Shown piece by piece: positions 272-19,169 of a stretch of 33,156 nucleotides of DNA (its first letter is position 1; each line of letters opens with the position of its first letter). Where the stretch lies: positions 1 through 33,156 of the forward strand of contig CANGHK010000055.1 of assembly GCA_947453625.1 (NCBI GenBank). Direction: 5' to 3'. Under the pieces are notes generated by a model. It was not told where the DNA came from. It saw only the letters and a list, made by a program, of their open reading frames with translations, and made no database searches. The position numbers and the translations under genes were made by a program. The DNA is from Burkholderiales bacterium. GTDB lineage: Bacteria; Pseudomonadota; Gammaproteobacteria; Burkholderiales; Burkholderiaceae_C.

Positions 272-1255
272 TCAGGCCCAGACAAAGGCGGTGGCGGGAT
301 CGAAGGGATGGACCTGAGCCCAGTGGCGCGCGATGTCGATCCGGCGCGTCACCCAGACCCGGTCGTGGCGCTCGATGTGGTCGAGAAAGCGCTGCAACGC
401 GCGCATCCGGCCCGGCCGGCCCAGGATGCGGCAGTGCATGCCTATGCTCATCATCCTCGGCCTGTCCTCGCCCTCGGCATAGAGCACATCGAAGCTGTCG
501 CGCAGGTAGTCGAAGAACTCGTCGCCATGGCTGAATCCCTGCGGCAGGCCGAAGCGCATGTCGTTGCAGTCCATCGTGTAGGGCACGACCAGTTGCGGCA
601 CGAGGTCGCCGTCGCTCTTTTTGACCTTGAGCCAGAACGGCAGGTCGTCGCCGTAGTAGTCGCTGTCGTATTCGAAACCGCCGTGGTCGGCCACCAGGCG
701 CCGGGTGGCCGGGCTGTCGCGCCCGGTGTACCAGCCGGCCGGCCAGAGTCCGCCGGTGATCTGCCGCAGCAGCGCGGTGCCGGTGTGCAGGTGCTCGCGC
801 TCGACCGCCTCGTCGACCTGCTGGTAGTTGATCCAGCGCCAGCCATGGCAGGCGATCTCATGGCCTTGGTCCAGCAGCGCCTGGGCCAGCTCGGGGTGGC
901 GCTGCAGCGCCATCGAGACGGCGAACACGGTCAGCGGCAGGCCGCGCCGCTCGAACTCGCGCAGGATGCGCCAGACCCCGGCGCGCGATCCGTACTCGTA
1001 GATCGACTCCATCGACAGGTGGCGCGCCGGATAGGCCGGCGGGTTGGCCATCTCGGACAGGAACTGCTCGCTGCCGGCGTCGCCGTGCAGCACGCTGTTC
1101 TCGCCGCCCTCCTCGTAGTTCAGCACGAACTGCACGGCGACCCGGGCCTGCTTGGGCCAGCGCGCCTCGGGCAGGTCGCGACCGTAGCCGATCAGGTCGC
1201 GGGGATAGCGCATGCCTGGCGTGCCGGCCATGCCGTCGGGGTGTGGGAGGGTCAT
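272..1255 (-). CDS. puuE: Allantoinase PuuE (polysaccharide-deacetylase fold)
   Basis: This 327-residue protein matches PuuE, the allantoinase that hydrolyses allantoin to allantoate and is unrelated to the amidohydrolase-type AllB. It belongs to the carbohydrate esterase 4/NodB fold. Recognisable family segments are PRDLIGYG near the N-terminus, VQFVLNYEEGGENS, the long LSMESIYEYGSRAGVWRIL stretch, HEIACHGWRW and SIGMHCRILGRPGR near the C-terminus. The length is close to the family norm of about 300-320. It is cytoplasmic, with no signal peptide. It sits between gntR (22 bases upstream) and uraD (5 bases downstream) in one leftward unit. The ATG at 1255 has only a weak GAG-type ribosome site; an in-frame Met at residue 9 or 15 would also fit the family start. 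Confidence 0.95.
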   Translation of the reverse strand: MTLPHPDGMAGTPGMRYPRDLIGYGRDLPEARWPKQARVAVQFVLNYEEGGENSVLHGDAGSEQFLSEMANPPAYPARHLSMESIYEYGSRAGVWRILREFERRGLPLTVFAVSMALQRHPELAQALLDQGHEIACHGWRWINYQQVDEAVEREHLHTGTALLRQITGGLWPAGWYTGRDSPATRRLVADHGGFEYDSDYYGDDLPFWLKVKKSDGDLVPQLVVPYTMDCNDMRFGLPQGFSHGDEFFDYLRDSFDVLYAEGEDRPRMMSIGMHCRILGRPGRMRALQRFLDHIERHDRVWVTRRIDIARHWAQVHPFDPATAFVWA

Positions 1256-1277
1256 CTCGATCAGCCTGAAGGGGGTG

Positions 1278-2030
1278 TCAGTTGGCGCCCGGCCGCAACA
1301 CCGCGGCCAGGTCGGGGGTGCGGGGATGCAGGTGCAGGTTGCGCTCGACGCTGGCCAGGTGTTGCGCCATCAGTGCTACCGCGCCATCGGCGTCGCGCCG
1401 CTGCAGCGCATCGACGATCAGCCCATGCTCGGCCTGTGAGCATTCGGCCGACTGCGAGGACTGGACCATCATCGCGACCAGCGACGACCGGCTCAGCAAA
1501 TCGGCCAGCGTCTGCGCCAGCACGGCGTTGCCGAACTGGCGCGCCAGCAAGCCATGGAAGTCGGCCAGCAGCCGGGTGCGGCCGCTGACGTCGATGCGGG
1601 CCAGGGCCTCGCGCTCGAGGCACAAGTGGGCGCGCAGCGCCTCCAGCTGCGCCTCGGTGATCGATTGGCAAAGCCGGCGCAACATCGCGGTCTCGATCAT
1701 CGCGCGCAGCTCGAACACTTCGCGCGCCTCGTCCACGCTGGGCACCGCGACGAAGGCGCCACGCGCCGGCGTCAGCGTCACCAGGCGGTCGCGGCTGAGC
1801 TGGTTCAGCGCCTGGCGCACCAGCGTGCGCGAGACCTTGAAGATGTCGGCGATAGTCTGCTCGGCCAGCTTGGTGCCCGGCATCAGCCGGCGCTCGATGA
1901 TCGCCGTGGTGATGGCCTCGGCGATGCGCTGGGTGGCGCCGGCTGGGGGCGACTCGACGGGCGCCGCACGCCGCGTCCGGCCGGCCGGCGTTGCCGGCAG
2001 CTCAGGCGGGACGGGGCGGTTTGGGGGCAT
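1278..2030 (-). CDS. GntR-family (FadR subfamily) regulator of urate catabolism
   Basis: A 250-residue transcription factor with an N-terminal winged helix at about residues 30-95 (KLAEQTIADIFKVSRTLVRQAL, then a beta wing ending TPARGAFVAVP) and an all-helical FCD ligand-binding domain over the rest (EAREVFELRAMIETAML, then DFHGLLARQ with the usual metal-site histidine). Its position as first gene of the puuE-uraD unit, divergent from uraH, makes it the local regulator; the inducer is probably urate or a downstream intermediate, which is inference. A perfect 16-bp palindrome of GntR type lies 33-48 bases upstream of its ATG, so autoregulation is likely. The first 25 residues are Pro/Arg-rich and outside the domain, so a slightly later start is possible. 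Confidence 0.93.
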   Translation of the reverse strand: MPPNRPVPPELPATPAGRTRRAAPVESPPAGATQRIAEAITTAIIERRLMPGTKLAEQTIADIFKVSRTLVRQALNQLSRDRLVTLTPARGAFVAVPSVDEAREVFELRAMIETAMLRRLCQSITEAQLEALRAHLCLEREALARIDVSGRTRLLADFHGLLARQFGNAVLAQTLADLLSRSSLVAMMVQSSQSAECSQAEHGLIVDALQRRDADGAVALMAQHLASVERNLHLHPRTPDLAAVLRPGAN

Positions 2031-2062
2031 CGCGGGCTTCAGCGGGGTGTCACGACAAGATC

Positions 2063-2078
2063 AAAGTGTATACACTTT
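2063..2078. promoter_or_regulatory. Probable GntR operator, copy 1 (gntR-uraH divergent region)
   Basis: AAAGTGTATACACTTT is a perfect 16-bp palindrome centred on GTATAC, in the 109-bp space between the divergent gntR and uraH genes. FadR-type GntR factors commonly bind palindromes of this form. A second copy with one mismatch precedes puuD at 2585-2600. It can serve both divergent promoters. Assignment to the adjacent regulator is inference from position and symmetry. Confidence 0.75.
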
Positions 2079-2139
2079 AGAGGCTGTGCGGCCGGCAAGA
2101 CCGCCGGCCTGGCTTCGACACCCCCTGGAAAGGCGCTTT

Positions 2140-2496
2140 ATGGGACACCTGAGCACCCATGTGCTGGACACCGCCAATGGCTGCCCGGCCGCCGGCATGC
2201 AGGTCACGCTGCAGCGGCTCAACGGCGCTTCGGCCGACACCGTCGCGACCTTCACGCTCAACGCCGACGGCCGCAACCCGGGCGGCGCCTTGCTGGACGC
2301 CCAGGCCATGGCGGTGGGCCCCTACCGGCTGTTGTTCGAGGTGGCGCCCTATTTCCGTGCACGCGGCGCCCTGTTGCCCGACCCACCGTTCATCGATACG
2401 GTGCAGGTCGACTTCGGCATCGCCGATGCTGCCGGCCACTACCACGTGCCCCTGCTGGTCAGCCCCTGGAGCTACAGCACCTACCGCGGCAGCTGA
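2140..2496 (+). CDS. uraH: 5-hydroxyisourate hydrolase (transthyretin-like)
   Basis: A 118-residue transthyretin-related protein that hydrolyses 5-hydroxyisourate, the product of urate oxidation, to OHCU. The diagnostic ends are both present: LSTHVLDTANGCPA at residues 4-17 and the C-terminal YRGS (115-118). The catalytic set is visible as His7, Arg45, His102 and the terminal Ser118. The open frame extends far upstream, but the family N-terminus fixes the start at ATG 2140, preceded by a GGAAAGG ribosome site. There is no signal peptide, so it acts in the cytoplasm with PuuD facing it. It is the first gene of the rightward urate unit, with the GntR-type palindrome about 62-77 bases upstream. 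Confidence 0.97.
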   Translation: MGHLSTHVLDTANGCPAAGMQVTLQRLNGASADTVATFTLNADGRNPGGALLDAQAMAVGPYRLLFEVAPYFRARGALLPDPPFIDTVQVDFGIADAAGHYHVPLLVSPWSYSTYRGS

Positions 2497-2499
2497 CGT

Positions 2500-2520
2500 C
2501 GGCAGCCCACCCCGCTGCCG
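2500..2520 (+). terminator. Stem-loop after uraH
   Basis: CGGCAGC and GCTGCCG form a 7-bp GC stem around a 7-base loop, beginning 4 bases after the uraH stop. No T-run follows, so it is either a factor-dependent stop or an mRNA 3'-end stabiliser. It separates uraH from the independently controlled puuD promoter region. Confidence 0.4.
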
Positions 2521-2584
2521 GGCATGCACCTTGCTTGAAAGACTGGGTCACCTTTCGGGGTAAATCCCCTCGCAGCCAGAACGC

Positions 2585-2600
2585 AAGGTGTATACACTTT
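2585..2600. promoter_or_regulatory. Probable GntR operator, copy 2 (upstream of puuD)
   Basis: AAGGTGTATACACTTT matches the palindrome at 2063-2078 at 15 of 16 positions. It lies in the 252-bp gap between uraH and puuD, about 150 bases before the puuD start, which implies a second regulated promoter for puuD and the genes after it. Apart from this site and the stem-loop after uraH, nothing else was recognised in the gap. Confidence 0.72.
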
Positions 2601-2748
2601 CCAACCGATCGCCGCGGCGCCCGCGTTACGGTCCGGCCATTGGCCGGCCGCACCGGCTTGCGATCTCCCACCCTCACAGAGCCCGCTGTGGTGAGGGCAG
2701 CCCTGCCGACGCTGTCGGACGGACTGCCCCCGCTTGCCTGAGGCCGTG

Positions 2749-3954
2749 ATGGAAACCTACCTGCTCGACTGGGCCAACCTGCTGCTGCGCTGGGCCCATG
2801 TCATCGTCGCGATCGCCTGGATAGGTTCGTCGTTCTACTTCGTCTTCCTCGACAACAGCCTGACCCCGCCGGCCGACCCGGCGCTGCAAGCCAAGGGCGT
2901 CAACGGCGAGCTGTGGGCGGTGCATGGCGGCGGCTTCTACCACCCGCAGAAGTACATGGTGGCGCCGCGACAGATGCCCGAGCACCTGCACTGGTTCTAC
3001 TGGGAGAGCTACAGCACCTGGCTCACCGGTTTTGGCCTGTTCACGGTGCTCTACCTGTTCAACGCCAGCACCTTCCTGGTCGACAAGAACGTGCACGACT
3101 GGTCGGCGCAGGCGGCCGTCGCCGCGGCGCTGGGTTTTCTGGTGGTGTGCTGGTTCGTCTACGACAGCATCTGCCGGGCCTTCGGCCAGAAGAAGAACGG
3201 CGACCTGATCGTCGGCGCCGGCTTGTTCGGCTTCGTCGTCTTCGCGTCCTGGCTGGCCTGCCAGTTGTTCGCCGGCCGCGCGGCCTTCCTGCTGGTCGGC
3301 GCGATGCTCGCCACCTCGATGAGCGCCAACGTCTTCGTCTGGATCATCCCCGGCCAGCGCAAGGTGGTGGCCCAGCTCAAGGCCGGGCAGCCGGTGGACC
3401 CGGTGCATGGCTGGCGCGCCAAGCAACGCAGCGTGCACAACACCTACTTCACGCTGCCGGTGCTGATCGCGATGCTGTCCAACCACTACGGCTGGCTCTA
3501 CCAGGGCCGGCACAACTGGGCCGTGCTGGTGCTGCTGATGCTGGCCGGGGCGCTGATACGGCACAGCTTCGTCGCCAGGCACAAGGCCCTGGTGCAGGGC
3601 CGGCGCGTGCCCTGGGAGCATGCCGGCGTCGGCTGCGCCCTGCTGATCGCGCTGGTGGTCTGGCTGGCGCCGGCCCCGCCCTCGGCAGCCGCGCTGGCTG
3701 CTGCCAGGCAGCCAGCGAGCTTCAGCGCCGTCCAGGCGGTGATCAACCAGCGCTGCACGCCTTGCCACAACGCGCAAATACAACAGAAAGGCGTTGCGCT
3801 GCACAGTTCGGCGCTGATCATTCAAAATACTCAGGCCGTCTATCAACAGGCTGTATTGTTGAAACTGATGCCGATGAACAACGCCACCCAGATTACCGAC
3901 GACGAGCGCGCGCTGATCAAGCGCTGGTTCGAGTCGGGCGCCAGGCCAGACTGA
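2749..3954 (+). CDS. puuD: Membrane urate hydroxylase fused to cytochrome c (PuuD)
   Basis: A 401-residue inner-membrane protein that oxidises urate to 5-hydroxyisourate without forming hydrogen peroxide, replacing soluble uricase. The first about 310 residues form the urate-oxidase N-terminal membrane domain (formerly DUF989) with about eight hydrophobic segments and typical motifs such as IAWIGSSFYFVFLD and HGGGFYHPQKYMVAPRQMP. The last about 75 residues are a c-type cytochrome domain with heme motif CTPCH (Cys336, Cys339, His340) and a likely Met374 or Met376 axial ligand in KLMPMNN. Electrons would therefore pass to the respiratory chain. An upstream TTG at 2734 would add five residues; ATG 2749 fits the family start. 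The GntR-type palindrome about 150 bases upstream suggests induction with the other urate genes. Confidence 0.96.
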   Translation: METYLLDWANLLLRWAHVIVAIAWIGSSFYFVFLDNSLTPPADPALQAKGVNGELWAVHGGGFYHPQKYMVAPRQMPEHLHWFYWESYSTWLTGFGLFTVLYLFNASTFLVDKNVHDWSAQAAVAAALGFLVVCWFVYDSICRAFGQKKNGDLIVGAGLFGFVVFASWLACQLFAGRAAFLLVGAMLATSMSANVFVWIIPGQRKVVAQLKAGQPVDPVHGWRAKQRSVHNTYFTLPVLIAMLSNHYGWLYQGRHNWAVLVLLMLAGALIRHSFVARHKALVQGRRVPWEHAGVGCALLIALVVWLAPAPPSAAALAAARQPASFSAVQAVINQRCTPCHNAQIQQKGVALHSSALIIQNTQAVYQQAVLLKLMPMNNATQITDDERALIKRWFESGARPD

Positions 3955-4033
3955 GCCGAAGCCGCCGCGACCGTCGACACCGAGTATTGCCCCCCTGCAA
4001 GTCAACCCCAACCTTTCCCTCCAGGAGTTCCAC

Positions 4034-5062
4034 ATGAACAGAATCAAGTCGCTTGCGCCCGCCCTGCTGAGCGCAGCCCTCTGCGTCGCCGCGCCGCTGA
4101 CCGCCCAGGCTCAGTCGAATGTCTCGCTGTACGGCATGATCGACCTGGCCGCCGGTCAGTTCCAGAACGCCGGCGACAGCAAGACCTCCAAGGTCGAGAG
4201 CGGCGGCATGAGCACCAGCTATTTCGGCTTCCAGGGCACCGAAGACCTGGGCGACGGCCTGAAAGCCATGTTCAAGCTCGAGGGCTTCCTGCGCAACGAC
4301 ACGGGCGCCTCGGGTCGATTCAACGGCGACACGATGTTCGCCCGCAACTCCTATGTCGGACTGCAGGGCAAGCTGGGCGGCGTGATGGTCGGCCGCAACA
4401 CCACGCCGCTGTTCGTCTCGACGCTGATCTTCAACGCCCTCGGCGACTCGTTCGGCTATTCGCCCAACATCCGCCAGTTGTTCATCCCGACCACCGGCCT
4501 GGCTTTCTTCGGCGACACCGGCTGGAACAACTCGGTCGCCTACAGCAGCCCGAACTTCGGCGGCCTGAGCTTCAACCTGCTCGGCAACGTCAGTGAAGGC
4601 GCTGCGGGCGCCACCGGCAACAACATCGGCGGCAACGTGCTGTACTTCGCCGGCCCGCTCGCGGCCACCGGTGCCTTCCAGCAGGTCAAGAACGGCGCCT
4701 TCGGCACGCCGGCAGGCTTCAAGAGCCAGGACACCTGGCAGCTCGGCGCGTCCTATGATCTGTCCGTGGCCAAGCTGTACGGCCAGTACAGCAACGTCAA
4801 GACCAGCGCCACCGCCGACACCGAGACCCGGCTCTACGGCGTCGGCGTGGCGGTGCCTGTCGGTCTGGGCAAGGTGCTGGCGCAGTGGGGCGATGCCAGA
4901 GCCTACTTCGGCAGCAAGGAAGTGGTCAACAAGACGCTGTCGCTGGCCTACGACCACAACCTGTCCAAGAACACCGACATCTACGCCGTGGTGATGAACG
5001 ACAAGTTGACGGCCAAGACCGCCGGCAACACCCTGGCCGCCGGCATCCGCCTGAAGTTCTGA
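4034..5062 (+). CDS. Outer-membrane porin (Gram-negative trimeric porin family)
   Basis: A 342-residue general porin of the Burkholderia/Neisseria type. It has a Sec signal peptide ending AQA at residues 24-26, the family N-terminus SNVSLYGMIDLAAG, many alternating beta strands, the eyelet-region motif RNSYVGLQGKLGGVMVGRN, and a C-terminal strand ending in Phe (AGIRLKF) needed for BAM recognition. It starts 79 bases after puuD with a good AGGAG site. Its place between the urate hydroxylase and the purine permease suggests that it serves outer-membrane entry of urate or related purines, although specificity cannot be read from the sequence. Confidence 0.93.
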   Translation: MNRIKSLAPALLSAALCVAAPLTAQAQSNVSLYGMIDLAAGQFQNAGDSKTSKVESGGMSTSYFGFQGTEDLGDGLKAMFKLEGFLRNDTGASGRFNGDTMFARNSYVGLQGKLGGVMVGRNTTPLFVSTLIFNALGDSFGYSPNIRQLFIPTTGLAFFGDTGWNNSVAYSSPNFGGLSFNLLGNVSEGAAGATGNNIGGNVLYFAGPLAATGAFQQVKNGAFGTPAGFKSQDTWQLGASYDLSVAKLYGQYSNVKTSATADTETRLYGVGVAVPVGLGKVLAQWGDARAYFGSKEVVNKTLSLAYDHNLSKNTDIYAVVMNDKLTAKTAGNTLAAGIRLKF

Positions 5063-5096
5063 CCTTCCCCGGGGTCGCCGCCACAAGGCGCCCCAC

Positions 5097-5130
5097 CCGG
5101 ACGCGCGGGCCACCGGCCCTGCGCGTCCGG
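5097..5130 (+). terminator. Strong stem-loop between porin and permease
   Basis: CCGGACGCGCGGGCC (5097-5111) pairs with GGCCC-T-GCGCGTCCGG (5115-5130), giving a 15-bp stem with one bulged T and a three-base loop. No T-run follows. It lies in the 141-bp gap after the porin and probably limits read-through or protects the porin mRNA 3' end. Nothing else was seen in the gap except the AGGAGA ribosome site of the next gene. Confidence 0.5.
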
Positions 5131-5203
5131 CCCTCGAACCGAGGCAGCACGGCCAGGACCTGCGCGGTCCGGCGCCAAAGCCGCCCGACCCCAGGAGACA
5201 AGC

Positions 5204-6709
5204 ATGACCCTTGAAACGTTGCACCCAGTCGATGAGCGACTGCCCACCCCGCGCCTGTTGACGCTGGGTTTCCAGCATGTGCTGGTGATGTACGCCGGCG
5301 CGGTCGCGGTGCCACTGATCGTCGGCCGCGCGCTCAAGCTGTCGCCTGAACAGGTGGCGATGCTGATATCGGCCGACTTGTTCTGCTGCGGCCTGGTCAC
5401 GCTGATCCAGTCGCTGGGTTTCGGGCGCTGGTTCGGCATCAAGCTGCCGGTGATGATGGGCGTGACCTTTGCCGCCGTCGGCCCGATGGTGGCGATGGCC
5501 AATGCCCAGGGCGGGCCCGACGGCGCGAGGGCGATATTCGGCGCCATCATCGGCGCTGGCGTGATCGCGATGCTGATCGCGCCGCTGATGGGCCGCCTGC
5601 TGCGTTTCTTTCCGCCGGTGGTCACCGGCACCATCATCGCGATCATCGGCATCAGCCTGATGCGGGTGGGCATAGGCTGGGCGATGGGCGGTCCGGCGCC
5701 GGCCGCGCAAAGCGTGAACCTGCCGAAGCTGGCCGCGATGGTCGACAGCGCAAGGGCGGTCCAGGCCGCGGCAGCGGCGTCGGCGTCTGCGACCGGCGCC
5801 AGCGCCCCGCTGCTCAAACTGGCCGGCCCGGTGCCCATGCTCGACAACCCGGGCTATGGCGCGCTCGACAATCTGGCCATCGCCGCCTTCGTGCTGGTGG
5901 CCATCCTGCTGCTGGTGCGCCACGGCCGCGGCTTCGTCGCCAACATCGCCGTGCTGCTGGGCATAGTCGCCGGCTGCGCCGTGGCGGTGGCCCTGGGCAA
6001 GATGGGCTTCGACAAGGTGGCCAAGGCACCTTGGTTCGACCTGGTCACGCCGTTTGCGTTCGGTCTGCCCACCTTCGACCCGGTGATGGTGCTGACGATG
6101 ACGCTGGTGATGATCGTCGTGATGATCGAGTCGGTGGGCATGTTCCTGGCGCTGTCCGACCTCACCGGCAAGCCGCTGTCGCGCGACGCGCTGACCGCCG
6201 GCCTGCGCACCGACGGCCTGGGCACGCTGATCGGCGGCCTGTTCAACACCTTCCCCTACACCAGCTTCTCGCAGAACGTCGGGCTGGTGGGCGTGACCGG
6301 CGTCAAGAGCCGCTGGGTCTGCGTGGCGGCCGGCGCGATCATGATCGTGCTCGGGTTGCTGCCCAAGATGGCGGCCCTGGTCGAGGCCGTGCCGCAGTTC
6401 GTTCTCGGCGGCGCCGGGCTGGTGATGTTCGGCATGGTCGCGGCCACCGGCATCCGCATACTGGCCAATGTCGACTTCAAGGCCAGGCGCAACAACCTCT
6501 ACATCGTCGCGATCTCGATAGGCGCCGGCATGATCCCGCTGGTGGCACCGCGCTGGACCCAGCAGATGGCGCATGAGTTGCACCCCTTGCTCGAGAGCGG
6601 CATCCTGCTGACGGCGGTTTCAGCCGTGCTGCTGAACTTCTACTTCAACGGCGGCAGCGGCGACGCCGCCGGTGCGGTCGAAGCCGCCAAGACGGCCGAG
6701 GCACACTGA
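5204..6709 (+). CDS. NCS2-family xanthine/urate:proton symporter
   Basis: A 501-residue inner-membrane permease of the nucleobase-ascorbate transporter family. The N-terminus has the family phrase GFQHVLVMYAGAVAVPLIVG, and the NAT signature appears as QNVGLVGVTG beginning at Gln357, followed by VKSRWV. The many hydrophobic segments agree with 14 transmembrane spans. A hydrophilic, Ala/Ser-rich insertion occurs around residues 180-205. In this family, members with these motifs move xanthine or urate with protons; context (puuD, uraH, uraD) favours urate. It starts with a clear AGGAGA site. It most resembles the UacT/PbuX branch, but xanthine rather than urate cannot be excluded. Confidence 0.93.
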   Translation: MTLETLHPVDERLPTPRLLTLGFQHVLVMYAGAVAVPLIVGRALKLSPEQVAMLISADLFCCGLVTLIQSLGFGRWFGIKLPVMMGVTFAAVGPMVAMANAQGGPDGARAIFGAIIGAGVIAMLIAPLMGRLLRFFPPVVTGTIIAIIGISLMRVGIGWAMGGPAPAAQSVNLPKLAAMVDSARAVQAAAAASASATGASAPLLKLAGPVPMLDNPGYGALDNLAIAAFVLVAILLLVRHGRGFVANIAVLLGIVAGCAVAVALGKMGFDKVAKAPWFDLVTPFAFGLPTFDPVMVLTMTLVMIVVMIESVGMFLALSDLTGKPLSRDALTAGLRTDGLGTLIGGLFNTFPYTSFSQNVGLVGVTGVKSRWVCVAAGAIMIVLGLLPKMAALVEAVPQFVLGGAGLVMFGMVAATGIRILANVDFKARRNNLYIVAISIGAGMIPLVAPRWTQQMAHELHPLLESGILLTAVSAVLLNFYFNGGSGDAAGAVEAAKTAEAH

Positions 6710-6741
6710 CTCCTCGCGCGGCGCCACGGACGCCGACAAGG

Positions 6742-6788
6742 GCACGCCGGCAAGCATGCAAGGCCCGGCAGGGCGGTTGCCGGGGTGC
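6742..6788 (+). repeat. Inverted repeat between permease and aminotransferase
   Basis: GCAC-G-CCGGCAA (6742-6753) and TTGCCGG-G-GTGC (6777-6788) can pair over 11 bases with one mismatch, enclosing a further GC-rich loop. It sits in the 140-bp gap before the aminotransferase with no T-run after it. It may be a partial terminator or attenuator; no other feature was recognised in this gap. Confidence 0.35.
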
Positions 6789-6849
6789 TAAGCTGACCAC
6801 CCCTTGTCCGGAGCGCCGTGCGGCTGCTCCTCAAACCGGAGCCCACCCC

Positions 6850-8004
6850 ATGCCTGGCCTGCTGCCCCATATCGATCCTGATGGCCTGCTGGAGTACTCG
6901 GTGGTCTACACCGACCGGGCGCTCAACCACATGTCGGCCAAGTTCCAGGGCGTGATGCGCGACATCTCGGCCCTGCTCAAGAGCGTCTACGGCGCGCGTT
7001 CGGCCATCGTCGTGCCGGGCAGCGGCACCTTCGGCATGGAGGCGGTGGCGCGCCAGTTCGCCACCGGCAAGAAGTGCCTGGTGATACGCAACGGCTGGTT
7101 CAGCTACCGCTGGAGCCAGATCTTCGAGATGGGCCAGATCCCGTCCGAGACCACGGTGCTCAAGGCGCGACGCGTCGCCGACCAGCACCAGGCGGCCTTC
7201 GCGCCGGCGCCTATCGACGAGGTGGTGGCGGCAATCCACGCCCAGAAGCCCGATCTGGTGTTCGCGCCGCATGTCGAAACCTCGGCCGGCCTGATCCTGC
7301 CCGATGCCTACCTGCGCGCCGTGGGCGAGGCGGTGCACGCGGTGGGCGGCCTGTTCGTGCTCGACTGCATCGCCTCGGGTGCGATCTGGGTCGACATGGC
7401 CGCGCTCGGCGTCGACCTGCTGGTCAGCGCGCCGCAAAAGGGCTGGAGCGGCTCGCCCTGCTGCGCCTTCGTGATGCTCAGCGAGACCGCGCGCCAGCGC
7501 ATAGCCGCCACCACCAGCACCAGCTTTGCCTGCGACCTGAAGAAATGGCTGCAGATCATGGAGGCCTACGAAGGCGGCGGCCATGCCTACCACGCCACGC
7601 TGCCGACCGACGCGCTGACCCAGGTGCGCGACGTGATGCAGGAGACGCAGTCGCGCGGCTTCGAACGGGTGCGCGCGCAGCAGCAGGCGCTGGGCGACGC
7701 GGTGCGTGCATCGCTGGCGCGCAAGGGCTTCAAGAGCGTGGCCGCGCCGGGCTTCGAGGCGCCGGGCGTGGTCGTCAGCTACACCGACGACGCCGGCCTG
7801 AGCAGCAGCAAGACCTTCCTCGGCCTGGGCCTGCAGACCGCCGCCGGCGTGCCGCTGCAGTGCGACGAGCCGGCCGACTTCAAGACTTTCCGCATCGGCT
7901 TGTTCGGGCTCGACAAGCTGGCCGACGTTGCCGGCACGGTGGCGCGGCTGGACGCTGCGCTGAACCAGGTCGCGTCCTCCGCGCCTTTGGCCCAGGCAGC
8001 CTGA
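6850..8004 (+). CDS. Class-V PLP-dependent aminotransferase (possible ureidoglycine-glyoxylate aminotransferase)
   Basis: A 384-residue fold-type I aminotransferase of the alanine/serine-glyoxylate group. Visible landmarks are VPGSGTFGMEAV (residues 55-66, phosphate-binding turn), HVETSAG (141-147), Asp172 in LDCIAS (pairs with the PLP ring nitrogen) and the Schiff-base Lys197 in SAPQKGWSGSP. In purine catabolism, the related PucG transaminates ureidoglycine with glyoxylate. That is a reasonable role as last gene of the rightward urate unit, but a plain alanine-, serine- or 2-aminoethylphosphonate-type activity cannot be ruled out from sequence. A GGAG site precedes the ATG. A hairpin region separates its end from the convergent glpV. 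Confidence 0.85.
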   Translation: MPGLLPHIDPDGLLEYSVVYTDRALNHMSAKFQGVMRDISALLKSVYGARSAIVVPGSGTFGMEAVARQFATGKKCLVIRNGWFSYRWSQIFEMGQIPSETTVLKARRVADQHQAAFAPAPIDEVVAAIHAQKPDLVFAPHVETSAGLILPDAYLRAVGEAVHAVGGLFVLDCIASGAIWVDMAALGVDLLVSAPQKGWSGSPCCAFVMLSETARQRIAATTSTSFACDLKKWLQIMEAYEGGGHAYHATLPTDALTQVRDVMQETQSRGFERVRAQQQALGDAVRASLARKGFKSVAAPGFEAPGVVVSYTDDAGLSSSKTFLGLGLQTAAGVPLQCDEPADFKTFRIGLFGLDKLADVAGTVARLDAALNQVASSAPLAQAA

Positions 8005-8131: not shown

Positions 8132-9862
<1,731 letters not shown>

Positions 9863-9883
9863 GTCTCATCTCCTCACGTGGTT

Positions 9884-9930
9884 TGCTTCCCCGCCATGCC
9901 CAAACGGGTCGCCACGGCCCCGGGGAAGCA
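9884..9930 (-). repeat. Intercistronic inverted repeat upstream of glpV
   Basis: TGCTTCCCCG (9884-9893) and CGGGGAAGCA (9921-9930) are perfect 10-base inverted copies. They lie in the 94-bp gap between the DUF2160 gene and glpV. In the mRNA they form a stem-loop ahead of glpV, of the kind that protects a downstream binding-protein message after processing or weakens read-through. Confidence 0.55.
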
Positions 9931-9956
9931 CCGGGCCGGATCCCTGCTGCAAGAAC

Positions 9957-10265
9957 TCAGCCGCGCCGCATGATCAGACCCAATACGGCCATCGACAAGC
10001 CCAGACTGATCCAGATGCTGGGCTCGGCGGCCAGACCGAACCACTCGGTGGCCTTGCCGGCCAGGCCGACAAACGCCAGGTTGATATAGGCCGCCGTCAG
10101 CAAGCCGATGAACAAACGGTCGCCACGGGTGGTGGCGATCGGCAGGAAACCCTTGCGCATCACGGTCGGCGACCGGGTCTCCCACACCGTCATGCCCACC
10201 AGCATCAAGCCGATGCAGCTGAAGAACACCGCTACCGGCAAAGTCCAGGCCATCCACTCAAACAT
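9957..10265 (-). CDS. DUF2160 small membrane protein of the glycerol transporter locus
   Basis: A 102-residue inner-membrane protein with about three hydrophobic segments (residues 5-27, 52-70 and 79-99) and the central phrase GMTVWETRSPTVMRKGFLP that is typical of DUF2160. Genes of this family occur between glpQ and glpV in glycerol ABC operons, and this may be the product called GlpU in rhizobia. Its biochemical role is not established; a partner or assembly factor of the permease is a reasonable guess. Its start overlaps the end of a possible 27-codon reading frame. Confidence 0.85.
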   Translation of the reverse strand: MFEWMAWTLPVAVFFSCIGLMLVGMTVWETRSPTVMRKGFLPIATTRGDRLFIGLLTAAYINLAFVGLAGKATEWFGLAAEPSIWISLGLSMAVLGLIMRRG

Positions 10266-10341
10266 GGCCTGCCCCCGTAGCGCCTGCGGCCTGGCGGAGC
10301 CAGTTGCGCGGCGTCTGCTTGTTCGTGTCTGAGTTCGTCAT
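10258..10341 (-). CDS. Possible 27-residue leader peptide coupled to the DUF2160 gene
   Basis: In the 99-bp gap after glpQ, an ATG at 10341 opens 27 codons, begins MTNSDTNKQTPRNWLRQ, and ends at a TGA lying inside the first codons of the DUF2160 gene (shared bases ATGTTTGA). The overlap would allow translational coupling. There is no good ribosome site and no recognised homologue, so it may be chance. It is recorded because the gap otherwise holds no feature. Confidence 0.25.
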   Translation of the reverse strand: MTNSDTNKQTPRNWLRQAAGATGAGHV

Positions 10342-10364
10342 GGGTTATCCGCTTTTCGATTCGT

Positions 10365-11169
10365 TCAAACCCGACCCATTGCAAAGCCCTTGGCGATGTA
10401 ATGCCGCACGAACCAGATCACGATCGCGCCGGGCACGATGGTCAGCGTGCCGGCTGCCGCCAAGGTGGCCCAATCCATGCCCGAGGCGCTGACAGTGCGG
10501 GTCATCGTCGCGACGATGGGCTTGGCGTTGACGCTGGTCAGCGTGCGCGCCAGCAGCAGTTCGACCCAGCTGAACATGAAACAGAAGAAGGCCGCCACGC
10601 CTATGCCGGCCTTGATCAGCGGCACGAAGAGGGTCAGGAAGAAACGCGGGAAGGAATAACCGTCGATGTAGGCGGTCTCGTCGATCTCGCGCGGAATGCC
10701 GCTCATGAAGCCTTCCAGGATCCACACCGCCAGCGGCACGCTGAACACCAGGTGCGCCATCGCCACCGCCAGATGGGTGTCCATCAGCCCGAGCGTGGTG
10801 TAGAGCTGGAAGAAGGGCAGCAAGAAGACCGCCGGCGGCGTCATCCGGTTCGTCAGCAGCCAGAAGAACAGATGCTTGTCGCCGATGAAGCTGTAGCGGC
10901 TGAAGGCATAGGCGGCCGGCAGCGCCACCGCCAGGGTGACCACCATGTTGATCGCGACGTAGATCAGGCTGTTGATGTAGCCCGAGTACCAGGACTCGTC
11001 GGTGAAGATCTTGCCGTAGTTGGCCCAGGTGAAGTGCTGGGGCAGCAAGCTGAACGAGGACAGGATCTCCTCGTTGGTCTTGAAGCTCATGTTGACCATC
11101 CAGTAGATCGGCAGGATGGCAAACACCAGGTAGACGATCAGGAAGACCGTGCGTTTCTGGAACTTGGGT

Positions 11170-11177
<8 letters not shown>
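10365..11177 (-). CDS. glpQ: Glycerol ABC transporter permease (MalG type)
   Basis: A 270-residue inner-membrane permease with six predicted spans. The first is at residues 9-29 (TVFLIVYLVFAILPIYWMVNM), followed by the MalG-family phrase MSFKTNEEIL. The EAA coupling loop, which docks on the ATPases, is at about 162-190 with the core IDETAYIDGYSFPRFFL. It forms the glycerol channel with GlpP. Its start overlaps the glpP stop by 8 bases. Length and motifs match binding-protein-dependent carbohydrate permeases, and assignment to glycerol comes from the operon. Confidence 0.93.
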
Positions 11178-12050
<873 letters not shown>

Positions 12051-12054
<4 letters not shown>

Positions 12055-13106
12055 GCGGCCACCCCGTTGATCAAGGTTTCGTCCTTCGCGTACCAGCAGG
12101 TGCGCGGCCCGACCAGACCGAGCCAGACCGCGTCGCCCTGGCGCGGCGGATCGGCCTCGGGCGCCAGCCGCAGGCGCACCAGGTGCTCGCCCGCGCCGGA
12201 CGAGATCCGCGCCGTCACCAGCCAGTAGGTGCCGACGTCCTGGGTCATCGCCACCTGGGCCTGCAGCGCGCCGGCCTCACCGGCCCGCGCCAGCGTCACA
12301 TACTCGGGCCGCACGCCCAGCGTCACGGCGCCCGCGGGCGCGGCCGGCAGCAGCGCGGCGGGCAGGAAGTTCATGCCCGGCGAGCCGATGAAATGGCCGA
12401 CGAACATATGCTCGGGCCGGTCGAACAGCGCGTCGGCCGAGCCCACCTGCACCGCGCGGCCGCGTGTCATCACCACCACCTGCTCGGCAAAGGTCAGCGC
12501 CTCGACCTGGTCGTGGGTGACGTAGATCAGCGTCAGCTTCAACTCCTGGTGGATCTGCTTCAACTTGCGCCGCAGCTGCCATTTCAGGTGCGGGTCGATC
12601 ACCGTCAGCGGCTCGTCGAACAGCACCGCCGAGACATCCTCTCGCACCAGGCCGCGGCCCAGGCTGATCTTCTGCTTGGCGTCGGCCGCCAGCCCGGCGG
12701 CGCGCTGGTTCAGTTGGCCGCTGAGTTCCAGCATCTCGGCGATCTTGCCGACCCTGGCCTTGATGCGGTCGGGCGCGACGCCGCGGTTCTTCAGCGGGAA
12801 AGCCAGGTTCTCGGCCACCGTCATCGTGTCGTAGATCACCGGAAACTGGAACACCTGGGCGATGTTGCGCGCCTGCGGCGTCTTGCGGGTGACGTCCTCG
12901 CCGCCGAAGAGCACCGTGCCCTGCGAGGGTTGCACCAGGCCGGAGATCAGGTTGAGCATCGTCGTCTTGCCGCAGCCCGACGGGCCCAGCAAGGCGTAGG
13001 CGCCGCCGTCGTCGAAGCACATCTTCAGCGGCAGCAGCGCGTAGTCAGCGTCCTGCTGCGGGTCGCGCTTGTAGCTGTGGGCGAGGTCTAGGGCTATGCG
13101 GGCCAT
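12051..13106 (-). CDS. glpT: Glycerol ABC transporter ATPase with degenerate signature motif
   Basis: A 351-residue nucleotide-binding subunit of the MalK-like class with a C-terminal TOBE-type domain after about residue 240. Walker A is GPSGCGKTT (41-49), Walker B is VLFDEP with Asp164 and Glu165, and the H-loop His198 (VTHDQ) is intact. The ABC signature, normally LSGGQ, reads LAADA at 139-143. The protein can therefore bind and cleave ATP but cannot supply a normal signature to its partner. The frame is open to 13265, but the start is set at ATG 13106 because the preceding residues look non-coding and the ATG falls 1 base after the glpS stop. The symbol follows the rhizobial GlpSTPQV naming and is not the E. 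coli GlpT antiporter. Confidence 0.92.
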
Positions 13107-13107
13107 C

Positions 13108-14154
13108 TCAGCCCCCCTTTCTGGCCGGGGCCGACAACAGCAGGCCATCGGCGCCGAAGACATAGACCTGGGCCGGGTCGAGGTAGAGCGTGACCGGCGC
13201 GCCCAGGTCGAAGAAATGCACGCCGCTGAGCTGCGCCACCAGTTCACCGGCCGGCGTGGCCACATGGACGAAGGTGTCGGAGCCCGAGATCTCGGCCAGT
13301 TCCACCACCCCCGGCAGCGCGATATCGCCGGGGCGCTGCAGCACCCGCAGCGCGCTGGCGCGCAGGCCTACCGTGGTGTCGGGCGTGGCGGCGGCCAGCG
13401 TCAGGCCCAGCCGCGGTGCGCCGGCCGACAGCAGGTTCATCGGCGGGTCGCTGAAGGCGCGCGCGACCCGTATCGACACCGGGTGGTGGAAGACTTCGGC
13501 CGTGGGCCCGTACTGCAAGACCTCGCCGCGGTCCATCACCGCGGTCCAGCCGCCCAGCAGCAAGGCCTCGGTCGGCTCGGTAGTGGCGTAGACGACGGTG
13601 GAACTGCCGGCGGCGAACAGCGCCGACAACTCGTCGCGCAACTCCTCGCGCAGCTTGTAGTCCAGGTTGACCAGCGGCTCGTCGAGCAACATCAGCGGCG
13701 CGTCCTTGGCCAGCGCGCGGGCCAGCGCCACGCGTTGCTGCTGGCCACCCGACAACTCGGCCGGCAGGCGCGTCAGAAAGCTCTCGATATGCAGTTTCTC
13801 GGCCAGCGCCTGCACCCGCGCGGCGATCGCGGCGCGGTCCAGCGCCCCGCGCAACTTGAGCGGCGAGGCGATGTTGTCGAACACCGTCATCGACGGGTAG
13901 TTGATGAACTGCTGGTAGACCATCGCGACGTTGCGCTGGCGCACCGGCAGGCCGGTGACATCCTGGCCGTCGACATGCACCTTGCCGTGGGTCGGCACAT
14001 CCAGCCCGGCCATCAGCCGCATCAGCGTGGTCTTGCCGGCCTGGGTGGCGCCCAGCAGCACCGTCACCGTGCCGGGCTGCAGTGCCAGGCTCAGCGGGTA
14101 GAGGTGGGTGGCGGCACCGGCCTTGTGCTCGATCCGGTCGAGTGTCAGTTGCAT
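13108..14154 (-). CDS. glpS: Glycerol ABC transporter ATPase with substituted H-loop
   Basis: A 348-residue MalK-like nucleotide-binding subunit. Walker A is GATQAGKTT (35-43), the ABC signature LSGGQ is complete at 134-138, and Walker B (LMLLDEP, Asp158, Glu159) is intact. The switch histidine is replaced by threonine: ATTEPTEAL at 190-198, with Thr192 where GlpT has His198. This complements the defect in GlpT, so a GlpS-GlpT dimer would hold one complete ATP site and one degenerate one. It overlaps the end of glpD by 10 bases and ends 1 base before glpT. A C-terminal regulatory beta domain follows after about residue 235. Confidence 0.92.
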   Translation of the reverse strand: MQLTLDRIEHKAGAATHLYPLSLALQPGTVTVLLGATQAGKTTLMRLMAGLDVPTHGKVHVDGQDVTGLPVRQRNVAMVYQQFINYPSMTVFDNIASPLKLRGALDRAAIAARVQALAEKLHIESFLTRLPAELSGGQQQRVALARALAKDAPLMLLDEPLVNLDYKLREELRDELSALFAAGSSTVVYATTEPTEALLLGGWTAVMDRGEVLQYGPTAEVFHHPVSIRVARAFSDPPMNLLSAGAPRLGLTLAAATPDTTVGLRASALRVLQRPGDIALPGVVELAEISGSDTFVHVATPAGELVAQLSGVHFFDLGAPVTLYLDPAQVYVFGADGLLLSAPARKGG

Positions 14155-15764
14155 ACAGCCTCCCGGGCCACGATGTGCCGGACCTCAGGGTGGCGCACCA
14201 GCCACCAGTCGGCCACCCTGGCGCGCGACGGCGCGTCCAGGTGCAGGCCCAGCTTGGTGCGGCGCCACAGCACATCCTCGGCGCAGCGCGCCCATTCATG
14301 CTGGTACAGGTAGTCGAGCTCGGCCTCGAACAGGCCGGGGGCCACTTCGGCGCCCAGGTCACCGGCCTGCAGCAGCAGCGCCACGCGCCCGCCGTAGCAA
14401 CGCGCCCAACGCTCGCGCATCGATGCCGGCAACTGCGGGTGGCGGTCGGCCAACACGGCGTTGAAGCGCCGGATGTCGGTGTCGGGGCGCTGCGCCGCGC
14501 CTATCCAGGCCGACAGGTCGCCGCCCGGAAACATGGCGGACTCGGTCCAGGCCGGCCGGTGCTCACCCAGGCGCTGCACCAGCAGGTCGGCGGCCTCTTC
14601 GGCGAGCTTGCGGAAGGTGGTGATCTTGCCGCCCCAGACCGACAACAGCGGTCCGCGGTCGAGTGCGCCGGCCACGGCGGGCGGCCCGTCGTCGAATTCG
14701 AGCAGGTAGTCGCGCGTCACCGCCGAGGCGTCGCCCGACTCGTCGTCGAGCAGCGGCCGCACGCCTGAATAACGCCAGACGACATCGGCCGGCAGCACCG
14801 GCCGGGCAAAGTAGCGGCTGGCCTGCTCGCAGAGGTAATCGACCTCGTTGTCCTCGACCCGCGCGCTGTCGGGCGCACCGGCTTCGACCTCGACATCGGT
14901 GGTGCCGATCAGCGTGAAGTCGCCCTCGTAGGGGATCGCGAAGATGATGCGCTTGTCGGGGTTCTGGAAGATGTAGGCATGGTCGTGGTCGAACATCTTC
15001 TTGACGACGATGTGGCTGCCCTTGACCAGCCGTAGCGCGCGGGCGCTCTTGACGCCGGCGCGGGCGCGCAGGAACTCGCCCGTCCAGGGCCCACCGGCAT
15101 TGACGATCGCGCGCGCCTGCAGCGCGACCGGCGCCCCGCCCAGCGGCTGCAGCGTGGCGCGCCAGCCCGCGGGGGTGCGCTCGGCGCGCTCGCAGCGGCA
15201 GCGGGTCAGGATGGTGGCGCCATGGGCGGCGGCGTCCACCGCGCCCAGCACCACCAGCCGCGCGTCGTCGACCCAGCCGTCGCTGTACTCGAAGCCGCGG
15301 GTGTAGCGGGGTTTCAGCGGCGCGCCCACCGGGTGGGTGCGCAGGTCCAGCGTGCGGCTGGCCGGCAGCCATTCGCGCTTGGCCAGGTGGTCGTAGAGGA
15401 ACAGGCCGATGCGCACCATCCACACCGGACGCATCGACGGGTCGTGCGGCATCACGAAGCGCAGCGGCCACATGATGTGCGGCGCGCTCTTGAGCAGCAG
15501 TTCGCGCTCGGCCAGCGACTTGCGCACCAGGCTGAACTCGTAGTACTCGAGGTAGCGCAGACCGCCGTGGATCAGCTTGGTCGACGACGACGAGGTGTGG
15601 TGGGCCAGGTCATCCTGCTCGCACAGCACCACCTTCAGGCCGCGGCCAGCCAGGTCGCGGGCAATGCCGACGCCATTGATGCCGCCGCCCACCACCAGCA
15701 CGTCGCAGGACGCCGGCACGGCAGCGGTCAGGGGCACGGGTGCGCCCAGGGATGGCTCGGTCAA
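14145..15764 (-). CDS. glpD: Aerobic glycerol-3-phosphate dehydrogenase
   Basis: A 539-residue FAD-dependent, membrane-associated enzyme that oxidises glycerol-3-phosphate to dihydroxyacetone phosphate and passes electrons to ubiquinone. The FAD dinucleotide fold is at about residues 23-45 (VLVVGGGINGVGIARDLAGRG), followed by the GlpD-specific TSSSSTKLIHGGLRYLE. Further family segments are GVKSARALRLVKGSHIVV, FAIPYEGDFTLIGTTDVE, YSGVRPLLDDESGDASAVTR and SVWGGKITTFRKLAE. It is a little longer than the E. coli enzyme (501). It heads the leftward operon and is divergent from glpR across a 205-bp region with repeated TTCGTT boxes. Its product and GlpK's act in series. Confidence 0.96.
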   Translation of the reverse strand: MTEPSLGAPVPLTAAVPASCDVLVVGGGINGVGIARDLAGRGLKVVLCEQDDLAHHTSSSSTKLIHGGLRYLEYYEFSLVRKSLAERELLLKSAPHIMWPLRFVMPHDPSMRPVWMVRIGLFLYDHLAKREWLPASRTLDLRTHPVGAPLKPRYTRGFEYSDGWVDDARLVVLGAVDAAAHGATILTRCRCERAERTPAGWRATLQPLGGAPVALQARAIVNAGGPWTGEFLRARAGVKSARALRLVKGSHIVVKKMFDHDHAYIFQNPDKRIIFAIPYEGDFTLIGTTDVEVEAGAPDSARVEDNEVDYLCEQASRYFARPVLPADVVWRYSGVRPLLDDESGDASAVTRDYLLEFDDGPPAVAGALDRGPLLSVWGGKITTFRKLAEEAADLLVQRLGEHRPAWTESAMFPGGDLSAWIGAAQRPDTDIRRFNAVLADRHPQLPASMRERWARCYGGRVALLLQAGDLGAEVAPGLFEAELDYLYQHEWARCAEDVLWRRTKLGLHLDAPSRARVADWWLVRHPEVRHIVAREAVCN

Positions 15765-15969: not shown

Positions 15970-16829
15970 ATGACCGCACTGATCCCCAACCCGCGCCAGG
16001 CCGGTGTGCTCGAGACCGTGCGAGAGCTCGGTTCGGTCACCGTGGATGCGCTGGCCGAGCGCTTCGGTGTCACGCTGCAGACGGTGCGGCGCGACGTCAA
16101 GCTGCTGGCCGAGGCCGGCCTGCTGGCGCGTTTTCACGGCGGCGTGCGGCTGCCAGCCAGCACCACCGAGAACATCGCCTACCGCCAGCGCCAGCAACTC
16201 AACGAGGACGCCAAGCGGCGCATCGCGCGCGCCGTGGCGGCGCAAGTCCCCGACGGCTGCAGCCTGATCCTCAACATCGGCACCACGGTGGAGGCAGTGG
16301 CGCGCGAGTTGCTGGCCCGCCGCGGCCTGCGCGTGATCACCAACAACCTCAACGTCGCGGCGCTGCTCAGCGACAACCCCGACTGCGAGGTGATCGTCGC
16401 GGGCGGCCTGGTGCGCCCGCGCGACCGCGGCATCATCGGCGAAGCCACGGTCGAGTTCATCAGCCAGTTCCGGGTCGACATCGGGCTGATCGGCATCTCG
16501 GGCATAGAAGCCGACGGCACGCTGCGCGACTTCGACTACCGCGAGGTCAAGGTGGCGCAGGCCATCATCCGCGCCAGCCGCCAGGTCTGGCTGGTGGCCG
16601 ACCACAGCAAGTTCAACCGCCCGGCGATGGTCGAGATGGGCCGGCTGGCCCAGGTCGACGCGCTGTTCACCGACATCGCGCCGCCACCGGCCTTCCAGAC
16701 CCTGCTGACCGACGCCGGCGTGGCCTGCACGGTGGGTCAAGGCAGCGACCGCGGTGACGGCGGCGACAGTGCCCTCCCCAAGCCCGCCACCCGACCCAAC
16801 GCCGATACCGCCCGATCAGGAGACCGACC

Positions 16830-16833
<4 letters not shown>
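15970..16833 (+). CDS. glpR: DeoR-family glycerol-3-phosphate regulon repressor
   Basis: A 287-residue DeoR-family repressor with an N-terminal winged helix at about residues 5-60 ([24 protein letters not shown], then [13 protein letters not shown]). The C-terminal sugar-phosphate sensor domain has the phosphate-binding [13 protein letters not shown] and the family phrases [21 protein letters not shown] and VADHSKF. The expected ligand is glycerol-3-phosphate. It is about 35 residues longer than E. coli GlpR because of a low-complexity, Asp/Pro-rich tail. It is divergent from the glpD operon and its TGA overlaps the glpK start (ATGA), so repressor and kinase are co-translated. Confidence 0.92.
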
Positions 16834-18350
<1,517 letters not shown>

Positions 18351-18482
18351 CCACTGCCCGCGGCATTGCCGCCTTCGACGCAGTCGCCCGTAGCCCAGGG
18401 CAGCGCCGCGCTCGCCTTCAGCGGCCACCGGCTGTCGCCGACGCGATCGGACACGCCGCAGCGCAGGCCTTATCCTGCGCCG

Positions 18483-19169
18483 ATGAACCTCTGCAGACTC
18501 GACGGCAAGCGGGTGCTGGTCACCCAGTCACAAGACTTCATGGGCCCGGCGCTGACCGAGGTCTTCAGCCGGCTGGGCGCCACGGTGATCGCCGACCCAC
18601 GGCCCCTGGCCGACGATCCGGGCTTGCCGGCAGCCCTGGTTCAGGCCGCCGGACAGGTCGACGTGCTGGTCGTGCACCTGGCACTGCCGGCGCCGTCCAC
18701 CCCGGCGGGCGAGATCAGCGACGCCGAATGGCGCCAGGTGTTCGCCCACCTGGTCGACCCGATGCCGCGCCTGGTGGCCGCGGTGCTGCCGCAGATGCTG
18801 GCGCGGCGCGCAGGCCGCATCCTGCTGATGGGCAGCGCCGCGGCGCTGCGCGGCCAGAAACGCAACGCCAGCTACAGCGCGGCGCGTGGCGCGCAACTGG
18901 CCTATGTGCAGTCGGTCGGGCTGGAACTGGCGCCGAGCAACATCCAGTTCAATGCGATCGCGCAGAATTTCGTCGACAACCCGACCTATTACGGCGCCGA
19001 GGTGCAGGCCAACCCGCGCTTCCAGGACCGGCTCAAACGCGAGGTGCCGCTGGGCCGACTGGTGACGGGCGAGGAGGACGCGCTCTTCGCCGCCTACCTG
19101 TGCAGCGACGCGGCCGCCTGCTTCGTCGGCCAGGTGTTCCCGGTCAGCGGGGGCTGGGCGACGCGCTGA
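18483..19169 (+). CDS. SDR-fold protein with Ser-Tyr-Arg triad, halohydrin-dehalogenase-like
   Basis: A 228-residue protein of the short-chain dehydrogenase fold whose active site departs from a dehydrogenase. The Gly-rich NAD(P) loop is replaced by VLVTQSQDFMGPAL (residues 11-24), and the catalytic triad reads Ser118, Tyr131, Arg135, with Arg in place of Lys. The 13- and 4-residue spacings are those of halohydrin dehalogenase HheC (Ser132, Tyr145, Arg149). The phrases RLDGKRVLVT, GSAAALRGQ, IAQNF, NPTYY, VPLGRL, EEDAL and GGWAT resemble HheB-type sequences as I remember them. Such enzymes close vicinal halohydrins to epoxides and release halide. The start at ATG 18483 is chosen because the upstream frame is non-coding in character. 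It follows glpK by 132 bases. An atypical reductase remains possible. Confidence 0.8.
   Translation: MNLCRLDGKRVLVTQSQDFMGPALTEVFSRLGATVIADPRPLADDPGLPAALVQAAGQVDVLVVHLALPAPSTPAGEISDAEWRQVFAHLVDPMPRLVAAVLPQMLARRAGRILLMGSAAALRGQKRNASYSAARGAQLAYVQSVGLELAPSNIQFNAIAQNFVDNPTYYGAEVQANPRFQDRLKREVPLGRLVTGEEDALFAAYLCSDAAACFVGQVFPVSGGWATR

Follow-up and report, generated by a model that had tools for sequence, protein, structure and literature searches.

Halohydrin dehalogenases (HHDHs) are recognized by two diagnostic motifs, an N-terminal T-X4-F/Y-X-G and a catalytic S-X12-Y-X3-R, according to the motif definitions given in PMC4989007 and PMC11976700. By the same published motif description, HheC of Agrobacterium radiobacter AD1 carries this pattern with a Ser-Tyr-Arg triad. 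Its gene shares an operon with that of an epoxide hydrolase, as stated in PMC11976700, and PMC4989007 counts only two HHDH genes then known to be arranged in this way. The epoxides and haloalcohols tested in PMC11976700 are, as that paper remarks, probably not the natural substrates of HheC. Within subtype D, HheD2 is described as a gammaproteobacterial HHDH (PMC5892878). We report here a gene, hheD, in a contig of a Burkholderiales bacterium (CANGHK010000055.1, assembly GCA_947453625.1), whose positions 1 to 33,156 we refer to as the window. We conclude that hheD very probably encodes a chromosomal, stand-alone HheD-type HHDH with a Ser-Tyr-Arg triad and without NAD(P) motifs, and that the glp genes beside it reflect a gene order local to the lineage rather than partners conserved with it.

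The hheD gene is a single open frame (Table 1). A preliminary description of this DNA had reported the residues Ser118-Tyr131-Arg135 and the lack of a TGxxxGxG loop; the open frame, strand, length, and residue numbers were all as given there. Residues 14-21 of the protein read TQSQDFMG (T14, F19, and G21), in agreement with the N-terminal HHDH motif, and S118-x12-Y131-x3-R135 agrees with the catalytic motif. Three features of classical short-chain dehydrogenases (SDRs) are absent from the protein. The stretch TQSQDFMG at residues 14-21 lacks the glycine loop T-G/A-X3-G/A-X-G, Arg135 replaces the Lys of Tyr-X3-Lys, and Gln161-Asn162 replace Pro-Gly, the cofactor-related PG motif that usually follows the fifth or sixth strand of classical SDRs. 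As a control, we scanned nine SDR paralogues from the same genome. The TGxxx[GA]xG pattern was present in seven of them, N-x-[IVL]-x-P-G in eight, and S-X10-14-Y-X3-K in all nine frames, a match that may not mark the catalytic site in every frame.

The HHDH residues recur in relatives. In an alignment of 18 proteins, T14, F19, G21, S118, Y131, R135, Q161, and N162 were invariant. Both HHDH motifs were present in all 30 family-sample proteins that we extracted, the window's own included (a locus was available for 30 of the 33 matches), and in 79 of 80 named loci, which were taken from 454 relatives with up to 10 kb of flank on each side. The lone exception (L091:4487-5167) has Val for Phe/Tyr in the nucleophile-loop motif. 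None of the 80 named HheD relatives has the SDR PG motif, and 74 have an N-x-I-[AG]-[QH] pattern at that place.

Table 1. Features of the hheD locus, with positions in the window
Feature	Position	Strand	Evidence
hheD, halohydrin dehalogenase (HHDH) subtype D, 228 aa	18483..19169	+	motifs, PDB sequence match, Foldseek, tree
codons 14-21, T-X4-F-X-G, loop of the predicted nucleophile (halide) pocket, replacing the SDR glycine loop	18522..18545	+	sequence; definition PMC4989007, PMC11976700
codons 118-135, catalytic S-X12-Y-X3-R	18834..18887	+	sequence, alignment
codons 161-169 (QNFVDNPTY), place of the SDR PG cofactor motif; low model confidence at 162-169	18963..18989	+	
glpK, glycerol kinase	16830..18350	+	TIGR01311 691.7 bits, curated cut-off 590.35
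glpR-like DeoR-family regulator, overlaps glpK by 4 bp	15970..16833	+	284.6 bits, below curated cut-off 331
glpD, glycerol-3-phosphate dehydrogenase, divergent	14145..15764	-	725.3 bits, cut-off 360
GlpSTPQV-like ABC importer: two ATPases, two permeases, DUF2160-like small protein, binding protein	8132..14154	-	
glpK-hheD gap, 132 bp (glpK stop to hheD start)	18351..18482	+	

When the protein was compared to solved structures by sequence, the top match was HheD2 (7b73; 327.8 bits, E 3.5e-97), followed by HheD8 (8xxb; 292.8 bits) and HheB (4zd6; 160.2 bits). Enzymes named as classical SDRs began at 78.1 bits. Since the 7b73 match is this strong and the motifs recur in relatives, the identity of hheD is not due to chance. 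HheD2, from the gamma-proteobacterium HTCC2207, is 66% identical to the window protein over 223 columns of the structural alignment and has the same motifs and length class. The protein of the HTCC2207 locus in our set (L096) is identical to the 7b73 sequence at 225 of 225 residues, but its gene has a GNAT acetyltransferase gene upstream, whereas the window gene has glpK. HheD8, by the title of its entry a triple mutant with chloride bound, is 63% identical and shares the fold and motifs; the deposited chain is engineered and departs from the window protein at its mutated positions and elsewhere. HheB (4zd6 and 5b12) is ~41% identical and has the same motifs, except that its pocket loop carries Tyr instead of Phe, and constitutes a separate subtype outside the HheD rows of our tree.

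An AlphaFold2 model of the protein had a mean pLDDT of 81.9, with values below 50 at residues 162-169, 189-193, and 218-228. The sequence motifs agree with a halide pocket in the position of the NAD(P) site, a pocket predicted to include the low-confidence stretch 162-169. Foldseek ranks 1-5 were HheD2 and HheD8 (four 7b73 chains and 8xxb), ranks 6-9 were HheB chains, and rank 10 was the dehalogenase 6a41; NAD(P)-type SDRs started only at rank 11. As the rmsd was ~6 Å, the evidence lies in this ranking and not in the fit. We also built a tree of 28 rows, whose only HHDH references were HheD, HheB, and 6a41 and which used nine of the 34 further SDR-like matches in the same genome. The nine paralogues split from HheD, HheB, and 6a41 with support of 100/98, placing the window protein with HheD and apart from these SDRs. 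The HheD rows, including the window protein, separated from HheB with moderate support (90/76), and treekit flagged long branches in the SDR, 6a41, and HheB rows.

The protein exceeds the cut-offs of the general SDR models in Pfam (adh_short_C2 and adh_short), which is normal for a member of this superfamily. The NCBIfam matches were also SDR-type, including FabG-like models, and the best 25 of 189 were all far below their curated cut-offs. Automatic annotation would probably call hheD an SDR oxidoreductase. These matches fit a reading of the product as an NAD(P)-dependent SDR whose motifs are atypical, a reading that we regard as extremely improbable, as Lys is changed to Arg, an aromatic loop stands for the glycine loop, Gln-Asn stands for PG, and the protein's closest structures and companions in the tree are HHDHs. 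Motifs, nearest solved structures, fold search, and tree agree on the halohydrin dehalogenase identity that had been proposed for this gene, and sequence data could scarcely make it firmer.

If the enzyme follows its family, Arg135 would lower the pKa of Tyr131, which would take the proton of the substrate hydroxyl, and Ser118 would hold the substrate and position its oxygen. The oxygen would displace the vicinal halide into a pocket that residues 14-21 and roughly 161-169 would make up, yielding an epoxide. In the reverse reaction, epoxides would be opened with halide or other small anions. The expected substrates, as predicted from the protein's motifs and relatives, are chlorinated or brominated alcohols, which would be converted to epoxides. 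The epoxide would be removed in trans, possibly by an unlinked EphB-like hydrolase.

The preliminary description had also named a set of glycerol genes beside hheD, and this neighborhood was largely as stated there. Of these genes, glpK and glpD scored over curated cut-offs, whereas the regulator did not (Table 1). The two ABC ATPases and one permease of the importer were below their curated NCBIfam cut-offs, and its binding protein, small DUF2160-like protein, and other permease had no NCBIfam match at 1e-20. The label GlpSTPQV therefore follows from gene order and the general make-up of such importers, and is in part presumptive. Within the gap between glpK and hheD, we saw no promoter-like or terminator-like site at the scan thresholds, a result that says little because shuffled sequences lead one to expect only 0.2 and 0.9 such sites in the 2.9 kb scanned. 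For promoter footprinting, the region upstream of hheD aligned poorly among near relatives. The GC content of hheD (0.709) is the same as that of glpK and thus gives no sign of recent acquisition. By eye, positions 272-8004 of the window resemble a purine/urate catabolism cluster, with what we take to be polysaccharide-deacetylase-type, hydroxyisourate-hydrolase-like, and PuuD-like proteins, a permease, and an aminotransferase.

The attachment of hheD to glycerol utilization as a functional unit, as first proposed, was not supported when we examined relatives. We mapped the genus, with the window included, by orthologues that were 50% or more identical, and equated genome (G) and named-locus (L) contigs of equal length via a shared 300-base word. 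In three of the 17 genus genomes that carry hheD, glpK is its immediate neighbor, with short gaps: the window, G262 (L041), and G251 (L048). Three others have glpK less than 6 kb upstream with different genes between: a TIR-domain gene in G264 (L046), an opposite-strand catalase-family gene in G256 (L055), and a regulator-like gene in G257 (L058). Since these further genomes keep glpK within 6 kb, the adjacency may be ancestral in the genus. The TIR-domain gene (L046:8926-9981, plus strand) ends 4 bp before the called hheD frame. In nine genomes (G266, G252, G011, G227, G143, G255, G265, G261, and G258), glpK was absent from the flank examined, which was short on one side for G265 and G261 and on both sides for G258. 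The remaining two (G263 and G254) were undeterminable, as their contigs end just upstream of hheD.

Among the 80 named loci, glpK was near hheD in six, a lower bound because many loci extend less than 10 kb on a side. It lay upstream in L041, L046, L048, L055, and L058, all contigs of the genus; among the other 75, some of which are also of the genus, only L057 had it, ~7 kb downstream. The closest named relative (L040, 87%) had no glp gene within 10 kb. No glpK match flanked the 29 other hheD loci of the family sample, with flanks of at most 1.5 kb a side and some shorter. A glycerol kinase match was present in 32 of the 33 family-sample genomes with hheD, 31 of them over the cut-off. Eight family genomes have hheD and an over-cut-off glpK on one contig; the two genes are 132 bp apart in the window and 163 kb to 3.2 Mb apart in the other seven (G058, G060, G087, G091, G143, G164, and G212; distances are along the contig, circularity ignored). 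Adjacency to glpK is not kept among relatives. The synteny is lineage-local: apart from L057, only some genomes of a single genus have it among the loci examined. A functional pairing of hheD with glycerol genes is not supported, and most of the relatives examined lack the gene order of the window, which looks accidental and local.

Neighbor clustering and Pfam tallies of the hheD loci revealed no widely shared partner. The ORF caller was crude, missing hheD itself in 17 and 18 loci, and hheD was forced in for one clustering. For the upstream tally, we took one gene from each of 68 of the 80 loci. Four loci had no called upstream ORF (L051, L052, L081, and L108), others were left out as short or with few ORFs (L050, L080, L092, L095, and L097), as were L098, L101, and L117, and the second ORF was used for L065, L071, L072, L075, and L076, where the first was ~105 aa or shorter. 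The downstream tally covered 74 of 80, with none for L068, L069, L080, L085, and L108, L044 left out, and the second ORF used for L094. Among the 25 most frequent Pfam families of each tally (out of 111 and 89), none adjoined hheD in more than 6/68 loci upstream or 6/74 downstream. The commonest were glyoxalase and GNAT acetyltransferase upstream (6/68 each) and KDPG aldolase downstream (6/74); the glycerol-kinase-type FGGY family was directly upstream in 2/68. As these tallies lack a common family, hheD behaves as a lone gene whose neighbors are set by lineage, and the 80 closest named loci suggest that HheD genes in general are without a widely shared partner. The glyoxalase-family gene, presumably GloA-like from its opening residues, directly precedes hheD in L090, L099, L106, L111, L113, and L116, which have Comamonadaceae, Limnohabitans, or Burkholderiales titles. 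The GNAT gene is upstream in L085, L086, L093, L096, L100, and L115, with Porticoccaceae, SAR92, HTCC2207, or Pseudomonadales titles.

We saw no epoxide hydrolase gene adjoining hheD in the window, an arrangement unlike that of hheC. A loose motif scan of 81 loci, which would miss hydrolases without these motifs, gave matches in L050, L079, L112 (twice), L118, and the window. We rejected the L050 match, which overlaps a called amidohydrolase gene but is in a different frame, and the window match (30565, minus strand, RGRP...GGDRG), which is without the His-Asp nucleophile element. Of the matches in L050, L079, L118, and the window, we take those in L079 and L118 (~7.7 kb from hheD) to be the only plausible linked epoxide hydrolases. 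In the window's own genome, PF06441 (EHN), PF07858 (LEH), and the exact GHDWG pattern were not found (the assembly is 95.6% complete). A wider PF00561 scan, of which we examined the best 30 of 38 matches, yielded a 371-residue open frame with HGFP and GHDFG on contig C9 (L150:1453-2565, minus strand; C9 about 109251-110225), unlinked to hheD. This alpha/beta hydrolase resembles the solved EphA/EphB epoxide hydrolases and matches the chain 2zjf of mycobacterial EphB along its length (143.5 bits). Since the genome has this EphB-like hydrolase at another site, a route to glycerol in trans is possible. The channeling of halogenated glycerol through an epoxide to glycerol, as previously envisaged, thus remains chemically feasible in this genome but has no gene-order tie to hheD.

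One explanation for the arrangement in the window is that hheD belongs to a glycerol catabolic unit co-expressed from glpR-glpK, in which chlorinated glycerols that are imported or arise in the cell would be converted to glycidol or epichlorohydrin and then to glycerol for GlpK and GlpD. The three genes run in one direction with only the 132-bp gap and no terminator-like site, the order and short gaps recur in L041 and L048, three more genus genomes keep glpK less than 6 kb upstream, and the EphB-like hydrolase is present in the genome. In the three touching genomes, glpR, glpK, and hheD could be co-transcribed and hence under glycerol-linked regulation. We nevertheless consider this explanation improbable, as the genes touch in only 3/17 genus genomes and are separated by unrelated genes, one on the opposite strand, in three more; the closest named relative lacks a nearby glp gene; in all seven further family genomes where a single contig carries both, hheD and glpK are at least 163 kb apart; and hheD has no epoxide hydrolase beside it in the window. 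We are just as doubtful that, in a sub-lineage of the genus, hheD was captured by the glpR-glpK transcription unit, is expressed together with glycerol kinase, and, with the unlinked EphB-like hydrolase, serves to salvage or detoxify glycidol or chlorinated glycerols. A search of the open-access literature, outside which most subscription papers lie, found none that pairs a halohydrin dehalogenase with glycerol kinase or glpK.

Alternatively, HheD may give general protection against reactive electrophiles, working mainly in reverse to open toxic epoxides by adding chloride or another anion, or may act on small environmental halogenated metabolites. Such a role would explain a lone, scattered hheD without fixed partners and is consistent with the lack of a widely shared neighbor among the named loci. 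The upstream glyoxalase-family genes fit detoxification weakly, although that association is local to one clade. PMC4989007, in its remarks on physiology, leaves other functions of HHDHs possible. We offer protection tentatively, as a possible role that we think somewhat unlikely; it concerns role and is compatible with the stand-alone HheD identity. A literature search on natural role gave nothing on this enzyme among the matches listed. For the stand-alone HheD enzyme that we favor, the lone-gene pattern of the 80 closest named loci therefore makes the glpK neighborhood a poor clue to natural role, and the window serves as a warning against reading function from the gene order of one genome. 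For biocatalysis, the window adds one HheD enzyme, another that can be cloned.

HheD homologues (E <= 1e-45) were found in 17/21 genus, 33/250 family, and 5/369 class genomes (samples, with the window's own genome counted). Named matches reach alphaproteobacterial, Acidobacteria, Desulfatitalea, Phycisphaerales, and Polyangiaceae records, and as many of these are metagenome bins, some may be binning errors or transfers. One genus genome, G255, has two hheD copies (L142 and L144), which are 64-65% identical to that of the window.
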